DNA from: a virus
Reading direction: 5' to 3' (one strand)
DNA: 27,002 nt
IMG/VR virus record: IMGVR_UViG_3300019487_000087
Location: 1 to 27,002 of that record
Shown one piece after another: positions 11,853 through 26,661 of this stretch. The notes under the pieces were generated by a model, which saw only the letters and a list, made by a program, of their open reading frames with translations, was not told the DNA's origin and did no database searches. The position numbers and the translations under genes were made by a program. The first letter of the stretch is position 1, and every line of letters starts with the position of its first letter.

Positions 11853-13448
11853 TTGCTAGACGAAAAAACGATGTACAAATACCGCACACAAAAAGCCAAA
11901 GGGCTAGGAGAATTATGCCTCTTCCCTGATGGGATAAATATGTGGCCCTGTAGCCACATATCGGCCATATATGGCGCCAATGTATGGCCGCATGAGTTTC
12001 ATACAAGATTGCCAGCATTTGCGCGGCCTTGTCCTACCACGCCACGCCATGGGTTTGTGGAGAGTAGGCCGGTACGTTACTTGGATGATGCCCTGCGTGT
12101 CATCAGCGACACGTTAGCCGCGGACCCAAATGGGGAAGTTATTTTTATGGACATAATCCCCGCCACGGTGAGCGGCATCATGACCAACGGTGGGATGGTG
12201 ATTGGCCCAGGAAACGACGGGGCCACGTCGGGGCATGGAAGTTACACAGTGCCTGCGCCAATAGGCGCAGCTCGTTGGAAGGATTTATGGAGGCCGCAAA
12301 TCGGGGATATGCCATGGTCCATTAAAAACACGCCATATATAGAATGGGTATCCGGAGAGCGAGACAGGGTGGAGATTGTCCAAAGTCGCGATGGGCCAGA
12401 AAGCCCAGCTAGTGACAATTACATTCCAGAGGACTTTACTGTAAGGAATGTTTTAAATGCAGGGGGAGATTTGCTGGAATGGGAGGAGACTGTAAAGATA
12501 CTTACAGGCGAGGAAGGCACGGTAGTCTATCATCCTGGGGGCTCGCTGGCGTCCCATTACGCCGTGCATTGCATACTTCACCGTATCCCTGTGTTTGTCA
12601 CTAAGTTTCCTGAAGAAGGCCGGCGTTACGTGGCAGAGTGTGAAATCCCAATGTGGACTGAGAGGGATTACAAACACCTAGCGCACGCAATTAGCCTCGG
12701 CACAGGCTTGCGTTGTGCCAATAGCCGAAGCCAAGCCAATATGGCCGTGGCCGCCATGCATGCAGGGGTATTGTGGACGCCAAAGGATCATCTAATAGAC
12801 CTGCTAGGCATTGGGGTTGTGTATGCAGCCCGATACATTGCCGCGGCATGCGCAGGGGAGGGACGACATTTTTGGGATTCTGGGCCGGGGCGGTTTGACC
12901 CTACCGTTGACAAATCAAAATCGACTTATAACAGATACGATAAACCATACAACCATCACGGCGATTGCCACTACAAGGCTTGGGTTGATAAGAATACCCC
13001 ATGGAGATCACACCTTGGGGCGCTGTTAGCGACCCCTGATCGTGATACTGTTTATGAACAAGCGTTCGACTGGCCTTGGGACAAGCTGCGCGGTATGTTA
13101 GATGCCCTGACTAGGGATTTTGAGGCCGATTGGCGCAGAGGATACGGCGGCCAGCCGTGGGTTAATGTAGCTACAGCCGGAAGCAAGCTTGTAGAGGCCG
13201 TGGACGATTTTATCGCCACACCATCTAATGATCACAGGAAAGCCATGATTTCTGCATGGAACTACGCCATTAATGTCGCCCACAACGGGGGGAAGGTAAT
13301 GACGAAGTGGGTAAGTACAGCTGGTATGAAAAGTATGGCTCATGTGCCGGCATTCGGGTTTTCTTCTGAGGCCGCTTACAAAGTTTGCCGATCGACAGTG
13401 TGGGCGGATTTGAAGGATGAATTACGGACAGCACGGAAGCCGGGTTAA
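11853..13448 (+). CDS. PEP-synthase-like protein: partial ATP-grasp plus phosphohistidine swivel domain
   Basis: The start is TTG 11853, chosen because AGGAGG (11839-11844) is 8 bases upstream; the first ATG (11871) is 26 bases away. The product has 531 residues. Residues 94-137 (GEVIFMDIIPATVSGIMTNG) resemble the end of an ATP-grasp domain of PEP synthase/PPDK, and YIEWVSGERDRVEIVQSRDG (162-181) matches its I-E-W...I-V-Q-S-R signature. Residues 222-250 (GTVVYHPGGSLASHYAVHCI) match the swivelling domain; His235 would be the phospho-carrier. Residues 260-531 match nothing I know. The usual large N-terminal ATP-binding part and the PEP-binding TIM barrel are absent. The substrate is unknown. 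Moderate AT content distinguishes it from neighbours. Confidence 0.7.
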   Translation: MLDEKTMYKYRTQKAKGLGELCLFPDGINMWPCSHISAIYGANVWPHEFHTRLPAFARPCPTTPRHGFVESRPVRYLDDALRVISDTLAADPNGEVIFMDIIPATVSGIMTNGGMVIGPGNDGATSGHGSYTVPAPIGAARWKDLWRPQIGDMPWSIKNTPYIEWVSGERDRVEIVQSRDGPESPASDNYIPEDFTVRNVLNAGGDLLEWEETVKILTGEEGTVVYHPGGSLASHYAVHCILHRIPVFVTKFPEEGRRYVAECEIPMWTERDYKHLAHAISLGTGLRCANSRSQANMAVAAMHAGVLWTPKDHLIDLLGIGVVYAARYIAAACAGEGRHFWDSGPGRFDPTVDKSKSTYNRYDKPYNHHGDCHYKAWVDKNTPWRSHLGALLATPDRDTVYEQAFDWPWDKLRGMLDALTRDFEADWRRGYGGQPWVNVATAGSKLVEAVDDFIATPSNDHRKAMISAWNYAINVAHNGGKVMTKWVSTAGMKSMAHVPAFGFSSEAAYKVCRSTVWADLKDELRTARKPG

Positions 13449-13467
13449 TAGAAGGACTGCACATATC

Positions 13468-14673
13468 ATGGGCAAGCGAGGTAAGCGGCAAAGACACCAG
13501 CGTCGGGCAGAGGAGCGGAGGCAAAAAAAGGGATTAGAAATGCATGCGGGGTATGATAGCGATAGGGATTGGCACGGACCCACACTATGGCGGCCAAATA
13601 ATGATTGCCATAAAAAAGTGACTAAGGTTTGGGAGAAAGGCTCGTTGAGGATATGGTGCGGCGATAGGGCGTCGGTGGGGTTTAGTACGAATAAATTTAA
13701 CCTGTACATCAGTGCAGCAGGGCTGACATGCAGGATTAACCCGCCGGTGTTTTTGACGACAGGGGCTGCGACGCTGCTGGGCTACAATCCCCAATTCGAC
13801 GACATAGGAGATATGCCGCATTTGTTTATCGAATGCTCCGATGGTTGTGCCCCGCCGCTAGATGCACAGCATTGGGTTTCTATTGCCGACAAGTTGTTGG
13901 AGTTCACAACATCTGAACATCCGTTCGACGTGGTAGTGTTCTGCGAGGGCGGGCACGGCCGCACAGGTACTGTAGCGGCAGTGTTGTTGTACTTCCTGGG
14001 GGCTTTTGACTCAGAAGCCAAGCCCATGGACCCTGCGTGGTGGTTGCGAAATAGGTATTGTATGGAGGCTGTAGAGACATATAACCAAGCCGAGTATATC
14101 ACCAACATGACGGGGATGGAGGTCAAGGTTGCTCCAAGTTTGGAGGCGATCCCCAATACCTGGGGGGCCGGCATTGATACCAGCGGCACAGGAAACGGCT
14201 ACGCAAAACCGGCCGGTGGCGCGACTAACGCGGCCGATCCCAAAAACACATACGAAGAGGTCTATGTCCGGGATAATGACGTGTTGTGGAGGCTGACGGT
14301 AAATAAGGCGGGGGATATTCTCTACCGTGAGGCCATAACGCAGCCAGGGGCGGGGTCGGAGGGGGCGCCGAGGGCCAGAAAAGGCCACGAGGCCGTCTAT
14401 GCAAGCTGGTTGGGGCCAGAGTATGTGAATGAGAGGGCAAGGTGGATACTGGCCGGTAAGCCAGACCGGGAGGCATGGGCGCAGCACAGGGACAATTCCA
14501 ATCGGCCAGCAGCGGCACTAACGGACCAGGATAATGGTGCCGGAAGCAGGCCGTGGCTGAGCTGGCTGCCCGTGGCCGTACGTGGGGTTACAAAACAGTT
14601 GAACCAGAAGGCCGCGGAGGACGGTACAGCACCAGCACCGCTACCGCCGGGCCGGGATGTGGAGAGTCACTGA
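13468..14673 (+). CDS. Dual-specificity or tyrosine-phosphatase-like protein
   Basis: ATG 13468 is preferred (GAAGGA 11 bases upstream) over ATG 13417, which lies inside the previous gene. The 401-residue product begins with a very basic tail (MGKRGKRQRHQRRAEERRQK). The phosphatase loop is VVVFCEGGHGRTGTVAAVLL at residues 155-174, a C-x5-R-T-G signature (Cys159, Arg165). A candidate general acid is Asp125 in FIECSDG. The C-terminal 190 residues are unrelated to phosphatases and end Gly/Pro/Ala-rich. It follows the PEP-synthase-like gene by 19 bases, which suggests a common task. Substrate could be a phosphoprotein, capped RNA or phosphorylated nucleotide. Confidence 0.75.
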   Translation: MGKRGKRQRHQRRAEERRQKKGLEMHAGYDSDRDWHGPTLWRPNNDCHKKVTKVWEKGSLRIWCGDRASVGFSTNKFNLYISAAGLTCRINPPVFLTTGAATLLGYNPQFDDIGDMPHLFIECSDGCAPPLDAQHWVSIADKLLEFTTSEHPFDVVVFCEGGHGRTGTVAAVLLYFLGAFDSEAKPMDPAWWLRNRYCMEAVETYNQAEYITNMTGMEVKVAPSLEAIPNTWGAGIDTSGTGNGYAKPAGGATNAADPKNTYEEVYVRDNDVLWRLTVNKAGDILYREAITQPGAGSEGAPRARKGHEAVYASWLGPEYVNERARWILAGKPDREAWAQHRDNSNRPAAALTDQDNGAGSRPWLSWLPVAVRGVTKQLNQKAAEDGTAPAPLPPGRDVESH

Positions 14674-23367: not shown

Positions 23368-23444
23368 TGCGGGGTGGAGGAGCGGCCGTCCTCGCCAGTC
23401 TCATAAACTGGAAATCGCGGGTTCGAATCCCGCCCCCGCTTCCA
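23368..23444 (+). tRNA. tRNA with CAU anticodon, initiator-like
   Basis: The cloverleaf is complete: acceptor stem 23368-23374/23434-23440, D arm GAGG/CCTC, anticodon stem CCAGT/ACTGG with loop CTCATAA (anticodon CAT at 23402-23404), five-base variable loop, T arm GCGGG/CCCGC with TTCGAAT, and an encoded CCA. The first pair is unpaired (T1 opposite T72), and position 11-24 is A-T. Both are hallmarks of bacterial initiator tRNA, and the 5' part GCGGGGTGGAG equals that of E. coli tRNA-fMet. But the three G-C pairs of the anticodon stem are missing. Confidence 0.9.
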
Positions 23445-23828: not shown

Positions 23829-24845
23829 ATGCCCCTCCAACATGTCCCACCCCAATACCCCACCACTGGCACCCGGGCCCACATCGCATTTGTGGGCATG
23901 GCGCCTAGCGACCGTGAACTGGTCACGGGCGTGCCTCTCACGGGACCTAGTGGCCGCGTGTTTGACCAGCTACTTGCTACCGCTAACATTGACCGCGGGC
24001 GCTGTTTGGTCACTAACTTGTTTGATGAACAAGCCCCGAATAACGACATCAGGCCGTGGATCAAAGAGAGCGGCCCGCGGCTAGCCAACAATCTTGAGCG
24101 CTTGCGCACCGAGCTTGCGGCCGCCAGCGCCCCCGTAGCTGTGCCCCTAGGAGCGGACGTGTTGGGTCAATTCACCGGCGTGGATTTGATCAGCAAGGCC
24201 CGTGGCGCGGTGAGCAAGGCAACGATACTGGTGCCCGGGCAGAAGATCGTGCCCACTTATCACCCCGCCCACGTGCTGCGAGAGTGGAAGATGTTCCCAA
24301 TAGTGTCCGCCGATTTTATCAAGGCCGATATGGAGGCGTGGCGGGGGCCCCTGATTGTGCCACCACGTATGGAACTCTGGCTCGAACCTACCCTGGCCGA
24401 TATGCAGTACTTCCGGCAACAATTCCTGGAGCACGCCGACCCTATCAGCATCGACATCGAGACCAGCCCCGCCCGACGGCAGATCACATGCGTTGGCTTT
24501 GGCTCCGGCCCCGACCGTGCCATCACGGTGCCGTTCTGTGACGGGCGCAAGCCGTCGGGGTCGTACTGGCGTACGGTAGAGGAGGAGGTCGCGGCCTGGA
24601 ACTGGGTCCGGGAGGTGTGCGCCATGCCGGCCCGCAAGCTGCTACAGAACGGCACCTACGACGTTTATTACTTGTGGAATACGGTAGGAATTCCTATCCT
24701 TAATTACTGTGAAGACACACGCCTATTACATCACGCATTATACCCTGAGCTCCCGAAGGACCTTGCCTTCATGGGCGCCTGTTATACCGGCCAAGGACCA
24801 TGGAAGTTAATGGGCTTTAACCAGGATGACAAAAGGTTTGGATAA
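23829..24845 (+). CDS. Uracil-DNA glycosylase-like domain fused to partial 3'-5' exonuclease (polymerase part 1)
   Basis: The 338-residue product begins with a UDG-superfamily domain (about 15-170): FVGMAPSDRELVTGVPLTGP (residues 21-40, the G-x-x-P ... G-x-P-x-x-G-P-S-G motif) and PTYHPAHVLR (142-151). The Fe-S cysteines of family 4 are absent. Residues 205-300 carry Exo I ISIDIETS (Asp209, Glu211) and Exo II LLQNGTYDVYYLW (Asn274, Asp278). It then stops just before the Exo III motif, which lies in the second gene (25042-26661). Removing uracil ahead of synthesis is the known role of UDG-polymerase fusions. Codon use becomes AT-rich after about 24660. Confidence 0.82.
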   Translation: MPLQHVPPQYPTTGTRAHIAFVGMAPSDRELVTGVPLTGPSGRVFDQLLATANIDRGRCLVTNLFDEQAPNNDIRPWIKESGPRLANNLERLRTELAAASAPVAVPLGADVLGQFTGVDLISKARGAVSKATILVPGQKIVPTYHPAHVLREWKMFPIVSADFIKADMEAWRGPLIVPPRMELWLEPTLADMQYFRQQFLEHADPISIDIETSPARRQITCVGFGSGPDRAITVPFCDGRKPSGSYWRTVEEEVAAWNWVREVCAMPARKLLQNGTYDVYYLWNTVGIPILNYCEDTRLLHHALYPELPKDLAFMGACYTGQGPWKLMGFNQDDKRFG

Positions 24846-25042
24846 TGAAATGGGGTTATCAGTCTACCAAACAAGACGATAGTCAATGGCACCTATGGTT
24901 TGCTTGGTTTCCTGTACGAATGGAAAACTGCATTTGGTGTTGGGGCGAATGGATAAAACGAAGGTGGGTTCATATACCCCCTTTGGATGCTCAAGGGGCA
25001 TGGAGATATAGAGAATACGAAGATAGCGGCCGAGGATATTAA
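24845..25042 (+). CDS. Small Trp-rich protein between the two polymerase genes (65 aa)
   Basis: Both ends overlap neighbours by one base (TAATG at 24843-24847 and 25040-25044), so its translation is coupled to both. The product is MKWGYQSTKQDDSQWHLWFA with WFPVRMENCIWCWGEWIKRR, a Trp-rich small phage type, and is AT-rich compared with its flanks. No endonuclease motif is visible. It sits exactly in the linker where a normal exonuclease domain would be continuous. Confidence 0.7.
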   Translation: MKWGYQSTKQDDSQWHLWFAWFPVRMENCIWCWGEWIKRRWVHIPPLDAQGAWRYREYEDSGRGY

Positions 25043-26661
25043 TGGCCCACATCCTAACTGCCCACGACCTCCTAACCGCGCCCCCAACCGGCCTGCTCAA
25101 ACACTGGGCCTACAACTCCCTTGACTGCACCGTAACCCGCGGCGTATGGGACGCCCTTCACCCTCGCCTCACCCCCCAAACCGCCCGCACCTACCACTAC
25201 GAGCTTGGCATGCAAGCCCCCGCCATGACCATGATGCAGCGTGGCGTGCTGGTAGATGAAAAAGCCCGCCAGGAGGCCCTTGGCGCTCTTCGCACCGAGG
25301 CCGAAGCCAAGACGGCAAGACTCAACGAGCAACTTGTCTATCTGTGGGACAAGGTTGAGACCACTCCCGGTCCCTGCCCTGGCGGGCTCCCAATGCCCAC
25401 GAAGAAGGAGCCAGGGGCGTTGGCCTCGGCCCGTGCACACCACCTCTGGCCTCGTGGAATCCTGCCCGTCGAGGCCAAGTGTCGCTGTTGTGGCATCCCC
25501 CGCAACCGCATCGCTGCGTTCAACCCCATGTCAGACGATGACGTAGCCCACCTGCTGCATGGCCTGCTAGGTGTTCCAGTGATGCAGAACAAGAAAGGCA
25601 AAGACAGTGTAGATAAAGAAGTTAGAGAACGAATTGGGCGGCGCTATCCTAAGGCAGCTTGGGCGGTGTTATGGATCGACAAGATTAGACGGTTGCGAGA
25701 TCAAGCTTCAGTCCTCAGTAGCACCGTTTCTACCGACGGGCGAATGCGGTCTACATTTGGAGTTGGTGTTGCGGACACGGGCCGGTGGTCGTCGTCTGCA
25801 AATCCATTTGATGAAGGCACCAATCTCCAGAACATAGAAGAACGCCTGCGCTACGTCTTCCGCGCCGACCCGGGCCGTGTTATGTTCTATGCTGACCTCG
25901 AACAAGCGGAGTCCTGTTGTGTCGCATACCTTGCCCAAGACGAAGCCTATATCAATGCACACAAATCCGGCGACGTGCACACCTACGTCTGCCGCCTCAT
26001 ATGGCCCGAGATCGCATGGACTGGGGAGTTGGCAGCGGATAAGAAACTGGCTGAAGAACTACACCCGGATTGGGACAAAGAGCACAGCTACCGATACAAC
26101 TCCAAGCGCATCCAACATGGCTCCAACTACCTTCTCACCGGGATTGGCTTGGCGCGCCTCGCTCGCCTACCACAGCGGATTGGATGCGAGGTCCAGGAGC
26201 GATACTTCGACCAATTCCCTGGCATACGGGTCTGGCAAGCAGGAATTGTGAATCAAGTCCGCTCGTATGGGTTTGTGGTCACACCGTTGGGCCGGCGGCG
26301 GCAGTTGTTTGGCAGGCCATGGGATCAGCACACTTGGAAACAGGCCGTGGCACAAATCCCCCAGTCTATGGTCGCCGATATCCTGTCGTGTGGCTTGTGG
26401 CAGATATGGGATACGATGGACCCCAACGAGGTATGGCTGATGGCACAAGTCCACGATGCGCTGCTGGGTACAGTCGAGGGCGCGTGGGGTACGGCGTCAA
26501 CGACCGAGGCGCTGGACAGTTTGTTGGCCAAGATGCTCGTCCCCGTCACCATCCACGGCCGCGAGATGGTGATCCCAGTGGATTGCAAGTCCGGTGGGAA
26601 TTGGGGGAAGTATAACGACAAAGAACAGAAAGGACGGCTAAATGCCAATGGACTACGATAA
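25042..26661 (+). CDS. Family A DNA polymerase, part 2 (Exo III plus polymerase)
   Basis: The 539-residue product starts with LLKHWAYNSLDCTVTRGVWD (residues 18-37), whose Y-x3-D (Tyr24, Asp28) is the Exo III motif that completes the exonuclease of the upstream gene. Polymerase motifs follow: TGRWSS (246-251) and NLQNIEERLRYVF; motif A FYADLEQAES (Asp285); motif B/O-helix YRYNSKRIQHGSNYLL (350-365); motif C AQVHDALL (His471, Asp472). The usual motif A I-E-L-R is A-E-S-C here. A CxxC element (KCRCCG, residues 146-151) sits in an insertion seen in UDG-linked polymerases. It is the replicative polymerase, probably working as a complex with the first part. Confidence 0.88.
   Translation: MAHILTAHDLLTAPPTGLLKHWAYNSLDCTVTRGVWDALHPRLTPQTARTYHYELGMQAPAMTMMQRGVLVDEKARQEALGALRTEAEAKTARLNEQLVYLWDKVETTPGPCPGGLPMPTKKEPGALASARAHHLWPRGILPVEAKCRCCGIPRNRIAAFNPMSDDDVAHLLHGLLGVPVMQNKKGKDSVDKEVRERIGRRYPKAAWAVLWIDKIRRLRDQASVLSSTVSTDGRMRSTFGVGVADTGRWSSSANPFDEGTNLQNIEERLRYVFRADPGRVMFYADLEQAESCCVAYLAQDEAYINAHKSGDVHTYVCRLIWPEIAWTGELAADKKLAEELHPDWDKEHSYRYNSKRIQHGSNYLLTGIGLARLARLPQRIGCEVQERYFDQFPGIRVWQAGIVNQVRSYGFVVTPLGRRRQLFGRPWDQHTWKQAVAQIPQSMVADILSCGLWQIWDTMDPNEVWLMAQVHDALLGTVEGAWGTASTTEALDSLLAKMLVPVTIHGREMVIPVDCKSGGNWGKYNDKEQKGRLNANGLR

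Follow-up and report, generated by a model that had tools for sequence, protein, structure and literature searches.

Organization of the Polymerase Locus

The window, which is the whole stretch of DNA that was analysed, is a virus contig of 27,002 bases that carries a terminase, a portal/head-tail adaptor, a helicase-like gene and a Sak4-like gene. Close to its end lie two polymerase genes, referred to here as A and B, with a small open reading frame between them (Table 1). The coordinates and motif positions that the original prediction gave for A, B and the intervening 65-codon ORF were confirmed from the sequence and its translation. Gene A ends 12 aa past a conserved WK, and in gene B an N-terminal extension of ~20 aa precedes Exo III. 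A GAGG Shine-Dalgarno sequence is located 6 nt upstream of the gene B ATG, and the polymerase residues of B are D285, K355, Y363 and H471-D472. A tRNA-Met (CAT) gene was observed just upstream of the polymerase genes (23368-23444), followed by ~170 bases without an obvious gene, and elsewhere in the window a 418-aa ORF (13417-14673) has a thymidylate-synthase PHROG match over 65 residues only (171-235).

Table 1. Features of the split polymerase locus in the window
Feature	Position	Strand	Description or evidence
Gene A	23829..24845	+	338 aa, UDG domain and DEDDy exonuclease Exo I/II
UDG domain of gene A, family-4-like	residues 16-155		Pfam UDG, 8.7e-17
Exo I codons D209-I-E211, gene A	24453..24461	+	translation, alignment
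Exo II codons N274-x3-D278, gene A	24648..24662	+	translation, alignment
TAATG stop/start overlap, gene A to 65-codon ORF	24843..24847	+	sequence
65-codon ORF in the A/B slot	24845..25042	+	AT-rich, Trp-rich small phage protein
TAATG stop/start overlap, 65-codon ORF to gene B	25040..25044	+	sequence
Gene B	25042..26661	+	539 aa, Exo III followed by family A polymerase
Exo III codons Y24-x3-D28, start of gene B	25111..25125	+	translation, alignment
DNA_pol_A domain of gene B	residues 159-522		Pfam, 8.6e-30

Pfam searches with the two chains returned only UDG and DNA_pol_A. PHROG 17 (phage DNA polymerase) matches A at profile positions 477-788 and B at 808-1235, so that a single profile continues across the gap. 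The family A polymerase, the DEDDy Exo I/II/III motifs and the N-terminal UDG domain of the PHROG 17 type are all present, spread over two chains; the continuous chain of that type is absent, both from the 94 of 94 A/B pairs described below and from a further contig, L187. Motif A of the UDG domain is unusual, reading GMAPS in the window, with E24 found in 79 of 86 pairs and GEAWG frequent in the clade. As this motif is degenerate in the window the glycosylase activity is uncertain, and a role in uracil sensing is possible.

Distribution and Phylogeny of the Split

The original prediction called for a survey of related phages for the same split, and the split was found in all 95 related A/B pairs that were examined. 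These comprise the window, Caulobacter phage Kuura, 92 IMG/VR contigs and one MAG contig. Scans of IMG/VR with single sequences (window B or the 65-aa ORF product) gave nothing usable, but two-sequence alignments of window and Kuura proteins worked and returned 93 loci, among them L025, which ends before gene B. The MAG contig is L187, a Terriglobia contig that was the sole match in the genome collection and is also split; it lies outside the sample of 94 pairs, including the window and Kuura, on which the following counts are based. The exonuclease is cut at the same point in 94 of 94 pairs with both genes. These pairs form 52 clusters at 90% B identity, and the pairwise B identity among the split lineages ranges from 25 to 88%. 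An assembly error had been named as one way in which the split could prove false; the identical break in the isolate genome of Kuura and in all other two-gene related loci excludes it. The split is old, conserved and apparently functional, and is neither decay nor a private accident.

It had also been stated that in UDG-polymerase fusions these parts form one chain. This holds for the sister lineages, as queries with single-chain proteins (Mel-JY34, ctMlz233, and a Desulfofustis phage) showed that a single ORF encodes both exonuclease and polymerase at 79 of 80 loci, whereas it does not hold for the clade of the window. Alignment to the intact UDG-exo-pol polymerases, another proposed check, gave the same domain order and motifs, with window A ~28-30% identical. 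The single-chain enzymes, such as those of Microcystis phage Mel-JY34 and Caudoviricetes vir526 (PHROG 17), differ in having a short linker in place of the A tail and the B extension.

Trees built from the exonuclease and polymerase columns place 51 of the 52 split lineages in a single group, and in a tree of a 38-row subset the 18 main-clade rows fall together with a support of 99 (branch support by SH-aLRT). The exception is L026, whose sister is the unsplit Desulfofustis phage (support 100). A single-origin topology, in which L026 is included in one split clade, was examined by the AU test (IQ-TREE) and gave p=0.024, which disfavours it only moderately, and the deep branches are long. Based on this placement and test, the same loop has probably been cut at least twice, with L026 a second independent split. 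At L026:6880-7300 a 56-aa ORF fills the gap, and there is a TAATG overlap there as well.

Occupants of the Slot between A and B

The 65-codon ORF differs in composition from its neighbours, with a GC content of 45% compared to 59% in A and 58% in B and a GC3 of 0.38 compared to 0.70 and 0.66. A stop-free frame of this length has a ~1% chance of occurring in shuffled sequence. Pfam and PHROG searches with the ORF gave no match, and weak tblastn matches identified relatives in Pseudomonas phage Astolliot and Rhizobium phage RHph_I1_23. The product of the window ORF has the motif WHxWFAWFPVR...W..W.RR and is 31-35% identical to the other two proteins, with 12 invariant alignment columns. By this alignment, the ORF belongs to a small family of Trp-rich proteins that occurs in phages unrelated to one another and is not part of the polymerase.

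It was originally suggested that the small ORF may have split a one-chain gene by invading it, and its AT-rich, compositionally foreign sequence and its exact fit in the break speak for such an event. However, in many relatives A and B abut and the slot is without an ORF, which makes the 65-codon ORF a later occupant rather than the cause of the split. Additionally, at least 51 lineages inherited the split from a common ancestor, and the inserts in relatives are unrelated to the window ORF, which itself comes from a family present elsewhere. Even within a single cluster with B at least 90% identical (L082), the slot is empty in L075, L095 and L098, holds 194 nt in L082 and L092 and holds 225 nt in L083 and L094. 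The empty slots and unrelated inserts refute the 65-codon ORF as the cause, and we regard its invasion as extremely improbable.

The inserts found in the relatives include HNH_3 (L061, L050, L068), LAGLIDADG_3 (L091), KTSC, DUF1937, DUF7768 and DUF6378, and the slot of Kuura contains two unrelated ORFs of 98 and 102 aa. Homing endonuclease domains have no Pfam match in the break of the window, and HNH_3 or LAGLIDADG_3 is present at the same site in four relatives. Because such genes occupy the slot in these four, an older homing endonuclease invasion may have been the original cause of the split. The sequence GAYGAATGA flanks the 225-nt insert on both sides (in L083) and is present once at the empty site (the L095 junction), a pattern in which the inserts seem to keep an overlapping stop/start at each join.

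The intervening stretch could instead be an intron, an intein or a recoding signal, such that a single chain is made after all. Group I introns are frequent in phage polymerase genes, and this explanation was raised by the authors who described phage MEP401 for their own split (PMC10580990). Several observations make it very improbable here. Direct overlap or abutment of A and B (spacer -4 to 0, through ATGA or TAATG) is seen in several lineages and leaves no room for an intron, and Rfam searches at strict and loose thresholds found no intron in the window and 12 relatives; both results speak against a polA gene interrupted by a group I intron. No Pfam intein domain was found, and the extensions at the break are only ~12 aa (A) and ~20 aa (B). 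The frames of A and B occur in all three registers relative to each other (22, 19 and 11 clusters). Gene B also has its own start codon and Shine-Dalgarno sequence, with a Shine-Dalgarno match of at least 4 nt in 20 of the 52 clusters compared to a background of 9%.

Conservation of the Proofreading Site

Across the alignment of the 94 pairs, the proofreading residues hardly vary on either chain. In A, Exo I is conserved as D209 (92/92) and E211 (92/92) and Exo II as N274 (93/93) and D278 (93/94), the sole exception being D278E in L033, and in B, Exo III is conserved as Y24 (94/94) and D28 (94/94). In the polymerase domain, D285 and K355 are invariant, position 363 is Y in 87 sequences and F in 4, and H471-D472 is found in 90 of 90. 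Gene B starts ~20 aa before its domain in nearly all pairs.

The dN/dS values were determined from 18 disjoint pairs of moderate divergence, several of which come from the same cluster, and are 0.117 for the exonuclease part of A, 0.136 for UDG, 0.045 for the Exo III part of B and 0.112 for the B polymerase. The tail of A after WK gave 0.013, a value derived from only 33 synonymous and 2 non-synonymous changes. Judged by these ratios, A and B are both under strong purifying selection. They also evolve in step, their distance matrices being correlated at r=0.935 (47 lineages), a value reached in 0 of 2000 permutations.

These data bear on whether proofreading was lost, the second of two outcomes that the original prediction had offered, in which B would be an exo-minus polymerase and A would be kept for its UDG domain only. 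The split does separate the catalytic residues, and the exonuclease activity is itself predicted. Against this, the Exo residues are invariant on both chains at pairwise B identities of 25-88%, the exonuclease part of A has a lower dN/dS than the UDG domain beside it, the Exo III part of B has a lower value than the polymerase, and the A+B model described below is complete. A loss of proofreading thus finds no support and is very unlikely. In principle, the exonuclease could be constrained by an activity of A that is independent of B, though Exo III is in B. The other outcome, an active site reassembled from two chains, is supported by the same features, namely essentially invariant catalytic residues, low dN/dS and the complete model.

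Predicted Structure of the Two Chains

In L041-L043, A and B are in the same frame and are separated by a single TAA (the junction is at L041:4334-4339). Read-through of this stop would yield one chain, and ~1/3 of loci would be in frame by chance. For AlphaFold2 (AF2), the L041 A-B chain was modelled with the separating TAA read as Q. The resulting A+B model has a pLDDT of 95.1 and a pTM of 0.92, and only two stretches of at least 3 residues fall below 50, one at the natural junction (329-337) and one made up of the last 3 residues (835-837). The Exo III helix spans residues 353-378. Residues 181-810 of the model align with the Klenow chain 1kfs 329-928 (Z 30.7, 548 residues), and the model also aligns with Bst polymerase I across both the A and the B parts. 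A and B are therefore predicted to fold together as a complete Klenow-like enzyme, and the docking is consistent with a complex but is not independent proof of one, since AF2 knows the Klenow fold and the alignment included unsplit relatives. Window B alone was modelled with a pLDDT of 87.6, its N-terminal blocks scoring 71-88. An N-terminal strand of B (339-342) in the L041 A+B model is absent from the model of window B alone; two different proteins are compared here, and the difference suggests that the B extension docks on A.

Comparison with Other Split Polymerases

Split phage polymerases are already known, and the closest precedents are cut elsewhere or belong to another family. The same split in the same clade is found in Caulobacter phage Kuura, in which Kuura_029 (A) and Kuura_026 (B) are 42% and 38% identical to the window proteins; its two slot ORFs are unrelated to that of the window, and its A gene is annotated only as a hypothetical protein. 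The split goes unmentioned in the paper describing Kuura (PMC9959647). In the T4-like Aeromonas phages 25 and 44RR, gene 43 is split into gp43A and gp43B with an intercistronic element or a homing endonuclease between them, and the two chains of phage 25 co-purify and polymerise (PMC2988022). This is likewise a two-chain phage replicative polymerase, but it belongs to the PolB family, compared to family A in the window, and has no UDG domain, and the review of these phages does not describe its break as falling between exonuclease catalytic motifs (PMC2988022). The OM43 phages MEP401 and MEP402 also have a family A polymerase encoded by two ORFs with a small unknown ORF between them, an arrangement that is conserved in the phage group (PMC10580990). 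Unlike in the window, the cut in MEP401/402 lies inside the polymerase domain, and the exonuclease remains together with the N-terminal polymerase part. A literature search that covered few subscription journals, in which such a report may exist, revealed no description of a family A polymerase cut between Exo II and Exo III throughout a clade.

Other breaks were observed in related polymerase genes. A second recurrent break, in Vibrio phage VS-ABTNL-3 and an IMG/VR contig (L008:4600-5280 and L175:5600-5960), lies inside the polymerase domain just past an NLQN(I/L)P motif (HMM positions 194/195) and has unrelated inserts. A third, at L004:2900-3200 (MW202554, ctLwi270), is located just after Exo III and contains an NrdR-like zinc ribbon frame (Pfam PF22811, E 4e-15). 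Such polymerase genes seem to have been repeatedly fragmented by small ORFs.

Proposed Model and Implications

We consider it probable that A and B form an obligate two-chain UDG-exo-pol in which the proofreading site is shared, the dimerisation being inferred. The two proteins would be subunits of one phage replicative enzyme, with A contributing UDG, Exo I and Exo II and B contributing the Exo III helix and the whole polymerase. Both would be expressed from one operon, A being translated first and then B, each from its own start codon. Binding of A to B would complete a DEDDy proofreading site, with its predicted exonuclease activity, at the interface. The break lies in a loop that connects the helix following Exo II to the Exo III helix, where the conserved ~20-aa extension at the N-terminus of B and the conserved C-terminal tail of A probably act as a clasp. 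This loop would have become a neutral operon slot, in which small genes (HNH, LAGLIDADG, KTSC, DUF and the 65-codon ORF of the window) come and go.

The association of A and B might alternatively be reversible, so that the phage runs a proofreading and a non-proofreading polymerase and A serves as a detachable subunit for proofreading and uracil sensing. With their separate starts and the variable slot between them, A and B could be expressed unequally, and B has a complete polymerase domain while A has UDG and most of the exonuclease. The A tail and Exo III are very strongly constrained, which suggests tight and constant assembly instead, and we consider reversible association unlikely. It is similarly doubtful, though conceivable, that a whole phage clade has a detachable proofreading subunit, with A docking on B and the A:B ratio tuning replication fidelity and the uracil response.

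Textbooks present Pol I-type proofreading as the classic example of an exonuclease that forms part of one polypeptide. In the clade of the window the active site has been cut between the second and third catalytic motifs, and strong selection has maintained the two halves across dozens of lineages. The split enzyme would offer a natural two-part system for examining how proofreading is assembled and controlled, and the A/B arrangement offers a marker for a large, barely described phage group in which A is otherwise annotated as hypothetical. The locus also illustrates how an essential gene, once broken up, can accumulate homing endonucleases and small cargo genes within it.
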